A DNA stretch of 64,000 nucleotides from Planctomycetota bacterium (lineage in GTDB: Bacteria > Planctomycetota > Planctomycetia > Pirellulales > Thermoguttaceae), in assembly GCA_029550925.1 (NCBI GenBank), contig JAKPGL010000030.1, positions 27,399 through 91,398 of the forward strand, given 5' to 3'. The position numbers were made by a program, and so were the translations under genes. This document shows positions 57,935 to 63,120 of this stretch, piece by piece. How positions within the stretch are numbered: position 1 is the stretch's first letter; each line of letters opens with the position of its first letter. Under the pieces are notes generated by a model that saw only the letters and a list, made by a program, of their open reading frames with translations, had not been told where the DNA came from and searched no databases.

Positions 57935-58882
57935 TCAGGAGGCCTTTTCCGGGACGGCCTTGGCATAGACCGCCTTGAGGTAATCACGGGCTTTGGCCAG
58001 GGCTTGGCTCATCGAGTCGGGTTCCGGCTCTCCGTGCATGAACGGATTCACATACCACGGATAGCCTATCTTCGCCAAGGCGGCCATCCAGGGAGTAAAA
58101 TCGGTGGGGCCAATGCCGGGCAATTGTTGCACTCCTGAGGCGTGTTGCCAGGCGTAGAAAAACAGCAGTTGCTTTCCGGCGGCCAGAATCGCCTCTTCGA
58201 CCTTTTCGCCCCGAGCCTGCACATGGTAGGGCGCCAGGGCAATGCCGATCCGCCCGTGCCGATTCAATTCCACAAACGCCTTGATCGAGTCGATCGAGTC
58301 CAACAGGGCATGGCCGTGGTTTTCGATGGCGATGTAGGAGTTATATTTTTCGGCCAAGTCGGCTTCTGGCTGGAGGGATTCTAGGAAGGCTTTCATGCGG
58401 CTGGTAAGTTCCTGGGGCTGACAGGGGGCGGTGCTACCGCGCACGGCCACGCCGCCGCCCGCTTTGCCTAACAGCTCGGCGTATGTTCGGTATCCGCCCG
58501 CATAGACCGAGAAACTATAGAGTTTCAGCCGATGTTTGGCCAGTAGTTCTTGCAAGCCGCCCGGCCCGAGCCGTTTTTGTACGTCGTCCAGATGGGGACA
58601 GCCGGCATGTGCGGACCAAATGTCAATCGCTTCAAATCCCAACCCAGCAATCCGCTCGCAGGCCTTTTCAATCGGCAGGCTCATAAAGTGGATCGACGAA
58701 GTGGACAGCTTCATGGGCCAGCGGCCAGCAGATTCCTGGGCGGCTGTAACCCTCTGGGCGGCGGCCTGAGAAACGCCGAAGACCGTTTTTGTCCCGGCCA
58801 GGACAGTTAGTCCGGCCGAGGCGGCCCCGGCCAAAAACCGCCGCCGAGTTACTGGGGACCCCAAAGGCTTTCGAAGATTCAT
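57935..58882 (-). CDS. Sugar phosphate isomerase/epimerase (AP-endonuclease 2-like TIM barrel), Tat signal
   Basis: TRRRFLAGAASAGLTVLAG; GFEAIDIWSAHAGCPHLDDV; YIAIENHGHALLDSIDSIKAFVEL. Confidence 0.8.
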   Translation of the reverse strand: MNLRKPLGSPVTRRRFLAGAASAGLTVLAGTKTVFGVSQAAAQRVTAAQESAGRWPMKLSTSSIHFMSLPIEKACERIAGLGFEAIDIWSAHAGCPHLDDVQKRLGPGGLQELLAKHRLKLYSFSVYAGGYRTYAELLGKAGGGVAVRGSTAPCQPQELTSRMKAFLESLQPEADLAEKYNSYIAIENHGHALLDSIDSIKAFVELNRHGRIGIALAPYHVQARGEKVEEAILAAGKQLLFFYAWQHASGVQQLPGIGPTDFTPWMAALAKIGYPWYVNPFMHGEPEPDSMSQALAKARDYLKAVYAKAVPEKAS

Positions 58883-58992: not shown

Positions 58993-59303
58993 TGGCGTAA
59001 CGCCGTCTGTTAGCCGACAATGTAACGCCGACTGTCAAGTCGGCAATTACTCAGCCTGGACAGGCTAAGTTACGTAACGCCGGCTGTTTAGCCGGCGCGT
59101 TACTCAGGCTGGACAGCCTAAGTTACGTAATGTCGGCTGTTAGCCGACAATGTAACGCCGACTGTCAAGTCGGCAATTACTCAGCCTAGACAGGCTAAGT
59201 TACGTAACGCCGACTGTTTAGCCGGCGCGTTACTCAGGCTGGACAGCCTAAGCTACGTAATGTCGGCTGTTAGCCGGCGATAAACCAGCCGGGACAGACT
59301 GGG
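58993..59303. repeat. Hairpin-rich repeat array, cluster 1
   Basis: Two consecutive 130-bp higher-order units (59021-59150, 59151-59280) made of gccgact-gtca-agtcggc, agcctggacaggct, gccggct-gttt-agccggc and gtcggct-gtt-agccgac hairpins. Confidence 0.9.
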
Positions 59304-60482
59304 TTAGAGGCGCGTGGGTTGTTGTTGCGTCAGGCAGTGGAGGGTACCCAGTCCAAGGACAAGATCCACAGCGTGAATGCCGACGACGGGCCGATCCGGG
59401 AACAGCTCGGCCAGGATGCCCAGGGCGAGCCGATCGGCCGGGTCGTTGAAGGTGGGGACCAGCACGGCGGCATTGGCGATGTAGAAGTTGGCGTAGCTGG
59501 CCGGCAGGCGTTCGTTGCGGAAATAGAGCGGCTGGGGCATGGGCAGACGCACCACGTCGAGTTTGGCGCCGTCGGCAAGTCGGGCGTCTTGAAGCCGCTC
59601 GGCGTTCTCGGCCAAAGGACGATAGTTTTCATCGGCCGGATCGTCGCATTGGACTAGGACGACCGTCGTAGGATTGACAAATCGGCACAGGTCATCGACA
59701 TGGCCATGGGTATCGTCGCCGGCAATGCCTCGGCCAAGCCAGATGACATGCTCTGCGCCGAGCCAATCTCGCACGGCCTGCTCAACGCCTTGCCGATCCA
59801 GGCCGGGATTTCGGACCTGCACTTTTTGATCCAGGTAGCACTCTTCGGTGGTAATGAGGGTGCCTTGGCCGTTGGCGTCGATACCGCCGCCTTCCAGGAC
59901 AAAGGGGCGATCGCCGACCCTGGCCTCAAAAAGGGGCAGACCCAGAGTTTTAGCGGCCCAGACCGGCACCTGCCGATCCAGCCGCCAATTCGGATACTTT
60001 GCCCAGCCGTTGAAATGAAACTGCACGATGGCCAAATCGGCCTGGATTGTTCCCCGCTCCTCCGACGAAGGTGTTCCCAAGCGGCTTTTGTCAGCAGGGG
60101 CATGGCGGGCACGCTGCGGGGCGACCGGGCGGGCTGGACCAACGGGTTGGCCGGGCAGACGGCGAACGAAGATCGGCCCCGCATCCCGTAGCCAAGACCT
60201 GTTGGTCTTTTTGCGGAAGAATTCCACCTGGTCGAGATCAGCACGGGCGGCTGAAAGTATCCGCCGGGCACGCATTTCGACCTCCGCAGAGCCGACCAAA
60301 ATCCGCACCTTTTCGCCCGGCGCGATTTTTCGCACAATCTCGCCGTAAACCCATTCGACCACACGGAGTTTTCCGGGCCAGTCGGTCGGTTCCTGCGGCC
60401 AGGCGATCCAGGTGGCCTCGTGCGGCTGCCATTCGGCGGGCATGGTAAAGCCCAGGTGGGCGGGGGGCACAGTCGGTTTCAT
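59304..60482 (-). CDS. aguA: Agmatine deiminase
   Basis: MPAEWQPHEATWIAWPQEPTDWPGKL; NRSWLRDAGPIFVRR; FVLEGGGIDANGQGTLITTEECYL; GHVDDLCRFV; LGTLHCLTQQQP. Confidence 0.95.
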   Translation of the reverse strand: MKPTVPPAHLGFTMPAEWQPHEATWIAWPQEPTDWPGKLRVVEWVYGEIVRKIAPGEKVRILVGSAEVEMRARRILSAARADLDQVEFFRKKTNRSWLRDAGPIFVRRLPGQPVGPARPVAPQRARHAPADKSRLGTPSSEERGTIQADLAIVQFHFNGWAKYPNWRLDRQVPVWAAKTLGLPLFEARVGDRPFVLEGGGIDANGQGTLITTEECYLDQKVQVRNPGLDRQGVEQAVRDWLGAEHVIWLGRGIAGDDTHGHVDDLCRFVNPTTVVLVQCDDPADENYRPLAENAERLQDARLADGAKLDVVRLPMPQPLYFRNERLPASYANFYIANAAVLVPTFNDPADRLALGILAELFPDRPVVGIHAVDLVLGLGTLHCLTQQQPTRL

Positions 60483-60750
60483 GGCGTCTTTTTTTCTCAA
60501 CCCAGACGGAAAATCTTATCAGCCCTTGATTGAATCAAAAGCACCGGGGTTCGGGAAGGAGGAGCGGAACGCTGCCAGGGCCAAATTGCCCCCTGGTCTC
60601 TTGGCCAAAACCCCCTTGTCTTAGGGAGATTTTTTCTTTACGATTCTTTCATCGAGCGGGGCTAGGGACTACGCTAGTGAGGACGTGGTTGCCGCGGGCA
60701 TGTGCGGTGAATCGAACGTTAGGGGCTTGCCCAGGCTGGCGTGTTTTACC

Positions 60751-60860
60751 GTATGGACAGCCGGCGTTACGTAGCTTAGGCTGTCCAGCCTGAGCAATCG
60801 CCCTCTAACAGAGGACGTTACATCGCCGACTTGACAGTCGGCGTTACGAAAGGCGGCGTT
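60751..60860. repeat. Hairpin-rich repeat array, cluster 2
   Basis: gttacgtagcttaggctgtccagcctgagcaatcgccctctaacagaggacgttacatcgccgacttgacagtcggcgttac, closely matching part of cluster 3. Confidence 0.85.
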
Positions 60861-60886
60861 ATCGGTGGTACAGGAGCCGAGGATTT

Positions 60887-62314
60887 ATGGAGTTTTTTGG
60901 GCAGGAAGATACCGGCGGGAGAGCTCGTCGGGAGAAATTTTGGGCGGCGGTCAGTTCTCTGGTCGCCGCAGTTTTTTTGACTGCCGTCAAGTTGGGGGTC
61001 GGCCTGTGGACCAATAGTTTGGGGATATTATCCGAGGCGGCCCATTCGGCGTTGGACCTGATGGCGGCGGCGATGACGGTTTGGGCGGTACAGATTGCCG
61101 GCCAACCCGCCGACAGTCGGCACACCTACGGCCACCAGAAGGTAGAAAACCTTTCGGCGCTATTCCAGACGGTTTTGCTTTTGGCCACATGCGGGTGGAT
61201 TGTCTATGAAGCGGTTCATCGGCTTGCGGCGGCGGAATCGCCGGAGGTGAAGGCCAACGTGTGGGCGTTTGGGGTGGTGCTCATGTCGATCGGGGTGGAT
61301 TGGTCTCGAAGTCGGGTTTTAGCGCGGACGGCTCGGAAACATCACAGTCAGGCCTTGGAGGCCGACGCTTTGCATTTTACCACCGACATTTTTTCTTCGT
61401 TGGTGGTGCTCTTGGGGCTGGTGGGGGTGGTTGTAGCAGACCGGGGCGGGCCGGCTTGGTTAGTCAAGGCGGACGCCACGGCTGCTTTGGCGGTGGCGGT
61501 GTTGGTGATAGGGTTGAGCATGCATCTGGCCAAAAAGGCCATTGATGAACTTTTAGACGCCATTCCTGTCGGGTTACAGGCCCAGGTACGAGAAGCCCTC
61601 CTGCAATCGCCCGGCGTGGTGGAAGTGGATCAGGTCCGATTGCGACGGAGCGGGGCGAAAATCTTTGCCGATCTGACGATCCGGATTCAGCACACCGCCA
61701 CCTTAGAACAAGCGCACCATCTGGCCCATCAGGCCGAGGAGGCTGTCCGAAGTCTGTTGCCGGGCGCCGATGTCGTCGTCCATGTGGAACCGATTCCAGG
61801 CAGTGCGGGCGACCTGGTGGGGACCGTTCGTGCGGCGGCCGACCGACATGGCTTGGCCGCCCATGCCATTCGGCTAGTAGAACAACAGGGTCAGCAGACG
61901 TTGGAACTCCATCTGGAAGTGCCGCCGGAACTGAGTCTGGAACAAGCCCATGAGCAAGCTACCGCCTGCGAAAATGAGCTCCATCAGACCCTGCCCGCAG
62001 TAGCAAGGATTGTTTCGCATCTGGAGCCTTCCAGCGGCGGCCATCCGACCCAAGCCCTGCCTCCACAGGCCGAAGAGACCGAACTGCTCCGAATGGTCCA
62101 CCAAGTTGTGGAAACGTACGCCCCCCAGGCCCATGGACACGATCTGCAAGTGCTCCGCTCGGCGGAGGGAATTTCCGTTTCGTTTCATTGCACGTTGCCC
62201 GGTCAGACCGGCATCCGGGAGGCCCACGATCTGGCCGAGATGTTGGAAAAACATCTCCGAAGCCTCCTGCCCGGCTTAGGGCGGGTGGTGATTCATGTGG
62301 AGCCGGAAACCTGA
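60887..62314 (+). CDS. Cation diffusion facilitator (CDF) transporter with three C-terminal dimerization-like domains
   Basis: AHSALDLMAAAMT and HFTTDIFSSLVVLLG (HxxxD in TM2 and TM5); HTYGHQKVENLSAL; three ...VHVEP/SHLEP/IHVEP cytosolic repeats. Confidence 0.93.
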   Translation: MEFFGQEDTGGRARREKFWAAVSSLVAAVFLTAVKLGVGLWTNSLGILSEAAHSALDLMAAAMTVWAVQIAGQPADSRHTYGHQKVENLSALFQTVLLLATCGWIVYEAVHRLAAAESPEVKANVWAFGVVLMSIGVDWSRSRVLARTARKHHSQALEADALHFTTDIFSSLVVLLGLVGVVVADRGGPAWLVKADATAALAVAVLVIGLSMHLAKKAIDELLDAIPVGLQAQVREALLQSPGVVEVDQVRLRRSGAKIFADLTIRIQHTATLEQAHHLAHQAEEAVRSLLPGADVVVHVEPIPGSAGDLVGTVRAAADRHGLAAHAIRLVEQQGQQTLELHLEVPPELSLEQAHEQATACENELHQTLPAVARIVSHLEPSSGGHPTQALPPQAEETELLRMVHQVVETYAPQAHGHDLQVLRSAEGISVSFHCTLPGQTGIREAHDLAEMLEKHLRSLLPGLGRVVIHVEPET

Positions 62315-62449
62315 GGGGAGACCAGTCCGCAGGTTGTTCCGGGCCACAGGGCCGCCTCTCCCCGGGTTGTTTGCCCGATGATACCCGCCCCCTAACGAGG
62401 GCGGTTTCTCAAAACCGTACCAAAAAGAACTACCCCAGGAGAAATCCCT

Positions 62450-62785
62450 ATGGAACACGTGATTCTTGGGTTTTCCGATTGCAATCGGCGCAGCCCCTTT
62501 CCGGGGGTTACCATGCATACGTTTGAGGGGCAACACATGACCCTTTCGGTCGTAGATATGCAGCCGGGGGCGGTCATCCCCCAGCATCAGCATCCGCACG
62601 AACAGATCGGCTATATGGTCCAAGGCGGCGGGGTGTTTCGCATTGGTGCGGAGACCTACCAGGTCCAGGCAGGCCAAATGTGGCGGATCCCTGGCAATAT
62701 GCCGCACGAGGTAACTGCCGGCCCAGAAGGCCTGCGGGCCATCGACGTCTTCTACCCGGTCCGGGAAGACATGCGCCCAGCGTAA
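62450..62785 (+). CDS. Cupin domain protein
   Basis: MTLSVVDMQPGAVIPQHQHPHEQIGYMVQGGGVFRIGAETYQVQAGQMWRIPGNMPHEV. Confidence 0.92.
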   Translation: MEHVILGFSDCNRRSPFPGVTMHTFEGQHMTLSVVDMQPGAVIPQHQHPHEQIGYMVQGGGVFRIGAETYQVQAGQMWRIPGNMPHEVTAGPEGLRAIDVFYPVREDMRPA

Positions 62786-63120
62786 CTTAGCCTGTCCAGG
62801 CTGAGTAACTTAGCCTGTCCAGGCTGAGTAGCTTGGCCTGTCTAGGCTGAGTAACTTAGCCTGTCTAGGCTGAGTAGCTTGGCCTGTCTAGGCTGAGTAA
62901 CTTAGCCTGTCTAGGCTGAGTAACTTAGCCTGTCCAGGCTGAGCAACGCGCCGGCTAACAGCCGGCGGTACGAGCTGTCCAGGCTGAGCAATCGCCCTCT
63001 AACAGAGGGCGCTACATCGCCGACTTGACAGTCGGCGTTACGTAGCTTGGCCTGTCTAGGCTGAGTAGCTTAGCCTGTCTAGGCTGAGCAACGCGCCGGC
63101 TAACAGCCGGCGGTACGTAG
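62782..63120. repeat. Hairpin-rich repeat array, cluster 3, including seven tandem 23-bp units
   Basis: GTAACTTAGCCTGTCCAGGCTGA and close variants x7 at 62782-62942, then gccggctaacagccggc, cgccctctaacagagggcg and gccgacttgacagtcggc hairpins. Confidence 0.95.

Follow-up and report, generated by a model that had tools for sequence, protein, structure and literature searches.

The window (the whole 64-kb stretch of DNA that was analysed) carries 27 short hairpin units in three clusters of 11, 3 and 13, and an explicit pattern scan found none elsewhere in it. The initial annotation had described three hairpin clusters and quoted five stems, all of which are present where it placed them. A gene for a xylose-isomerase-like TIM barrel protein (57935..58882, minus strand; PF01261) lies upstream of array 1, a gene of the agmatine/peptidyl-arginine deiminase family (59304..60500, minus strand; PF04371) separates arrays 1 and 2, a cation diffusion facilitator gene (60887..62314, plus strand; PF01545 and PF16916) stands between arrays 2 and 3, and a cupin gene (62450..62785, plus strand; PF07883) adjoins array 3. 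The units are of two types, A and B. Array 1 (58997..59279) has B units on the plus strand, starting at 58997, 59022, 59074, 59127, 59152, 59204 and 59257, and A units on the minus strand, starting at 59050, 59103, 59180 and 59233; it contains two 130-bp tandem copies that are 95% identical. Array 2 (60771..60847) has one A unit on the plus strand (60771-60794) and B units on the minus strand (60799-60821 and 60824-60847), with a degenerate partial unit just upstream at about 60750-60770. Its span 60771..60821 exemplifies an HH dimer, with a GTAGC-hairpin A, a short spacer and a reversed hairpin B (GTTAC), the tags lying outside, as in a BIME/REPIN-like tile. Array 3 (62782..63116) has nine A units on the plus strand, seven of them in a 23-nt head-to-tail run at 62782-62943 and the remainder at 63042-63088, together with four B units on the minus strand (62949, 62993, 63018 and 63094). 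The first unit of this array provides, within its GTAA tag, the TAA stop codon of the cupin gene (62783-62785).

Each unit is 23-24 nt long. On its tag-bearing strand GTAR is followed by an 8-bp stem whose first arm closes with CT, then by a GTY or GTYN loop, and AG with the second arm completes the unit. The tag, the loop and the closing CT/AG positions are nearly invariant and the remaining stem pairs vary; type A has the form CTTAGNCT-loop-AGN'CTGAG, and type B has a G+C-rich stem. The host genome (G000) is a 4.90-Mb draft of 233 contigs, 97.5% complete, and gene content such as DUF1559 proteins (call it a marker of the group) suggests that it is probably that of a planctomycete. The unit, grammar and dimer statistics given for it come from stretches totalling 1.85 Mb. 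There, 401 of 432 units carry a GTAR tag (GTAA in 291, GTAG in 110) and the other 31 carry GTAC. The GTAG superfamily is marked by an unpaired tag, GTAG or similar to GTGG, at one stem end; the tag of these units has a fixed position and a GTA core and is mostly GTAA. The hairpins are asymmetric, only one strand bearing the tag, and DNA folding gives the more stable fold for that strand because of a conserved T.G wobble at stem position 4, as read on the tagged strand. A general strand asymmetry of G.T over A.C pairs (130 versus 18 initially) was considered and dismissed, as the excess comes from stem position 4 alone, with 56 versus 60 elsewhere. A 52-nt A-B tile from the host genome folds into two hairpins at -16 kcal/mol as DNA (z -5.4). 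Most likely the units function as hairpins of the tagged strand, which would be recognised as single-stranded DNA.

Copies of the unit occur genome-wide. A pattern for type A, allowing up to three mismatches, matched 234 times in the host genome, and a strict GTAAC pattern covering both types matched 275 times in its 4.9 Mb, the reversed controls giving 0 in both cases. There are 478 hairpins that have CT/AG as closing pairs and GTY(N) or its complement as the loop, as compared to 117-238 for other mixed closing pairs, and no other loop set stands out. It had also been claimed that the two sides of a stem change together. This was examined in units picked by tag and loop only, which avoids the circularity of aligning hairpins chosen beforehand, and the claim is upheld: all six inner stem pairs are formed in 143 of 178 such stem-blind units, against a mean of 34 and a maximum of 50 when the 3' arms are shuffled. 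In the hairpin-selected set, two-sided pair changes are seen at four stem positions.

The initial annotation placed the hairpins only between genes, and with genes called by a simple codon model (78% coding density) none of 178 units, and later one of 316, overlaps a predicted gene. The units thus have the properties by which REPs are recognised (a palindrome of 20-40 bp, in many copies and extragenic), being 23-24 nt long, with at least 275 strict copies and 315 of 316 units extragenic. The 53 arrays whose gene contexts were recorded lie between genes of the same direction in 30 cases, divergent genes in 16 and convergent genes in 7, roughly as intergenic gaps do generally; their median distance to a gene 3' end is 40 nt, shorter than the 162 nt to a 5' end. 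Relative to flanking same-direction genes the strand of the arrays is slightly biased, about 15 arrays to 7 when counted by hand, which is not significant. Contig ends of the host genome are about tenfold richer in REPs, with 40 units in 32 kb of ends versus 41 in 317 kb of interior, in a sample partly chosen for having matches, and REP arrays probably fragment this assembly. Arrays gathered at contig ends can be seen, for instance, in L133, L134, L140, L146 and L147.

The two types follow a strict grammar within the arrays. Oppositely oriented neighbours are A-B in 211 of 214 cases (121 HH A-B, 90 TT A-B and 3 HH B-B) and tandem neighbours are of the same type in 103 of 107, so that the A units lie on one strand of an array and the B units on the other; the same rule was already evident in the first 456 kb. 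The spacers of HH dimers (tags outside) vary between 4 and 6 nt, and at tag-to-tag joints the spacer is 0 in 36 of 42 cases, giving a GTTACGTAAC joint. The GTAAC/GTTAC joints to which attention had been drawn do recur, but what they represent is pairs of 5' tags, where adjacent units face one another. The arrays have tandem periods of 23, 52 and 130 nt, which shows that they grow by local duplication. With inverted REP dimers as the building block and a mosaic of types, the grammar of the arrays is that of BIMEs/REPINs, that is, of GTAG-tagged REP dimers. The dimers of the host genome are diverse, 107 of 110 being distinct and only 2 being identical in two stretches, and they give no sign of recent copying or bursts there. 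In CRISPR arrays the direct repeats are identical and the spacers are unique and all of one size; the earlier statement that the clusters are unlike CRISPR holds, as their repeats are variable, occur in both orientations and have spacers of 0 or 4-6 nt. Integron attC-like sites, which the recurring GTTA/TAAC cores bring to mind, were also rejected, there being no cassettes and the tiles measuring 52 nt. A scan for tRNAs gave no matches.

The repeats are restricted to one genus. Strict matches number 275, 30 and 3 in its three genomes (G000, G001 and G002, respectively); in the rest of the family, the same pattern has 0 matches in 116 of 117 genomes and a single match in the remaining one, and in an order sample of 148 genomes two of the 145 non-genus genomes have a single match each. 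A plasmid collection searched with array 1 gave no match. The copies found in G001 and G002 are degenerate. Among 21 distinct G001 units, 19 units, of both types, have T-A at stem position 1, as do 3 of 3 G002 units seen; in G000 this position is mostly G-C or C-G. The comparison of G000 with G001 or G002 at three orthologous intergenic sites (L062/L027, L113/L035 and L089/L193) revealed arrays of the same A/B polarity in which the stems have changed yet are still paired. Arrays of G001 are missing from orthologous G000 sites (L101/L230, L103/L184, L091/L036 and L152/L029), several G000 arrays are missing or unrecognisable at the relatives' sites, and a remnant of the window's array 3 can be recognised in G002. 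Further candidates for orthologous G001-G000 sites, proposed on the basis of protein matches (L056, L101/L025, L103/L039 and L059/L041), turned out to be paralogues. The first 155 nt of a DUF1559 (PF07596) gene in G000 (L042:16643-17554) match dozens of G001 and G002 loci; this is a large gene family whose members share a conserved start. G001 also has an A-B REPIN of 70-75 nt, comprising an A hairpin, a conserved 27-nt spacer (TTTnCTGCCAGTTGAnCGAAA..ACCTA) and a B hairpin, which is found at 14 places (L239, L241, L243, L245, L247 and L249-L257) and is absent from G000. A dimer with a conserved spacer at 14 places is the mark of copying as a unit, the manner in which BIMEs and REPINs disperse.

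In other bacteria such repeats are copied by RAYT/TnpA-REP enzymes, and the initial annotation suggested a RAYT or IS200/IS605-like gene as the partner. A search with PF01797 at E<=10 found no RAYT/Y1 transposase in the three draft genomes of the genus, and NF047646 at E<=10 had no matches in the drafts of G001 and G002. The one candidate that NF047646 gave in G000 (C170, E 0.7) is spurious, lying antisense to ribosomal-protein genes, which were recognised by eye from the translated sequences. PF01797 was matched in 29 of the 40 genomes searched, and most relatives do have such a gene; the model misses some RAYTs, finding none in G009, where NF047646 gives clear matches (C6:489-851, E 1.6e-21; L258). 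A REPtron, in which a RAYT/Y1 gene is flanked by REPs, was likewise not found in the drafts of G000, G001 and G002. The idea of a transposase recurrently adjoining the arrays was discarded, as clustering of array-neighbour proteins gave only groups of two or three and no recurrent family. The smallest contigs seen measure about 1.8 kb. A serious caveat is that an enzyme gene of <1 kb, if REP arrays lie on both sides of it, could drop out of every draft assembly; since REP arrays probably break up the assembly, the drafts may simply lack a RAYT gene that the genomes have.

GTAG-tagged REPs have a 5' tetranucleotide tag, a 6-13 bp stem and a short loop, are extragenic, form HH/TT heterodimers, and display alternative complementary stem residues, G.T pairs and tags that supply stop codons; they have been reported in planctomycetes too, in R. 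baltica, and the tags of the catalogued REP families differ mainly at positions 2 and 3 (PMC3733652). The units of the genus share the anatomy of this superfamily, including the use of the tag as a stop codon (the cupin TAA), but differ in a tag that is mostly GTAA, its fourth base being mostly A, in a GTY(N) loop closed by an invariant CT/AG, in a near-absolute A/B strand polarity, and in that no transposase was found in three draft genomes. With the BIMEs of E. coli (y with z1 or z2) the arrays have in common an inverted mosaic in which two REP types differ in their stems, and an irregularity in the stem and a strand-specific tag are likewise present, whereas the hairpin is shorter, a wobble replaces the AA-GC bulge, the spacer is 4-6 nt and no TnpA-REP gene was seen. 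The group 3 REPtron of S. maltophilia has an 8-bp palindrome and a 3-nt loop of which the first G is required (PMC8266576). The genus units resemble it in their 8-bp stem and short loop starting with G; the REPtron has GTAG and a RAYT, as compared to mainly GTAA in the units. In Pseudomonas fluorescens the inverted REP doublet (REPIN) is the mobile unit (PMC3116915), to which the G001 dimer with its conserved 27-nt spacer corresponds, whereas the genus has heterodimers of two stem types, varying spacers of 4-6 nt in G000 and no RAYT found. Class 3 TnpA-Y1 associated repeats, also in planctomycetes, are high-copy hairpins with a 5' foot (PMC6006769); that foot is CnGA, as against GTAR in the genus units, and no Y1 gene was found in the genus genomes.

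We consider it likely that the arrays are REPs of the GTAG kind in BIME/REPIN-like mosaics, and that their tiles were copied by a RAYT-type HUH enzyme. The REP-like reading had been proposed in the initial annotation, and the tag, the short stem-loop, the inverted dimers, the extragenic clusters, the hundreds of copies and the covariation across species all speak for it. The basic tile would be an inverted A-B heterodimer with its tags outside, and tandem duplication and recombination of tiles would enlarge the arrays while keeping A and B on opposite strands. A TnpA-REP/RAYT-type HUH enzyme would have copied the dimers between intergenic sites, by analogy with what is known from E. coli and Pseudomonas. 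This putative enzyme might read the tag, the loop and the shape of the hairpin and not the sequence of the stem, and the stems would hence be free to drift by paired changes. It may have been lost in the genus, may be missing from the draft assemblies, or may come from another family. This kind of REP is already known; the differences here are that two thirds of the units carry a GTAA tag, that the A/B polarity is near-absolute and that no RAYT is visible in the genus as sampled.

Alternatively, a non-RAYT enzyme, such as another HUH nuclease, or host recombination or gene conversion acting on the hairpins might copy and homogenise the repeats. We regard this as unlikely: no RAYT was found in three genomes, yet from one species to another the two types changed their stems together and the arrays are lineage-specific, but the loss of a RAYT after the spread, or of a REP-flanked gene from the drafts, also explains these facts. 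REPs are strongly enriched at the contig ends examined, the smallest contigs seen are about 1.8 kb, and among E. coli strains both the loss of RAYT (PMC3733652) and REP populations without one (PMC3733652; PMC8049555) are known. It seems doubtful that a REP/REPIN population of several hundred units multiplied, and changed the stems of its two types in step, with no RAYT in the genus and by means of an unrecognised hairpin-processing enzyme or host gene conversion.

A family of structured RNAs (3' UTR stabilisers, terminators or processed small RNAs), the other possibility raised in the initial annotation, appears quite improbable to us. The position of A and B on opposite strands makes part of each array antisense, the strand bias is slight and not significant, 16 of the 53 arrays lie between divergent genes, and a scan of the window for Rfam families gave 0 matches above the gathering score; on the other side stand the covariation, the proximity of the arrays to gene 3' ends and a G.T wobble that is conserved in one strand only. 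Ordinary tandem repeats or neutral relics, in which the hairpin itself is not selected, would fit the local duplications with periods of 130 bp, 52 bp and 23 nt and the degenerate copies of G001 and G002. Pairing far above that of arm shuffles, and paired stem changes at orthologous loci of different species, make such an origin extremely improbable.

The spread of REPs and the reasons for which cells retain them are long-standing questions, and nearly all of the data come from RAYT-bearing proteobacteria. A genus with many REPs, a strict two-type grammar, paired stem shifts between species that are common to both types, and no detectable RAYT represents a natural test of RAYT-free persistence or spread; if the RAYT was merely lost in assembly, this would be an ordinary case. 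The usual pairing of enzyme and repeat exists in the clade, since in another member of the family (G008) a Y1 transposase gene (L051:119-716) is flanked by inverted GTAG-CCGTGGGT-TTTA-ACCCACGG hairpins, and this locus is a REPtron in the same family as the repeat-bearing genus.
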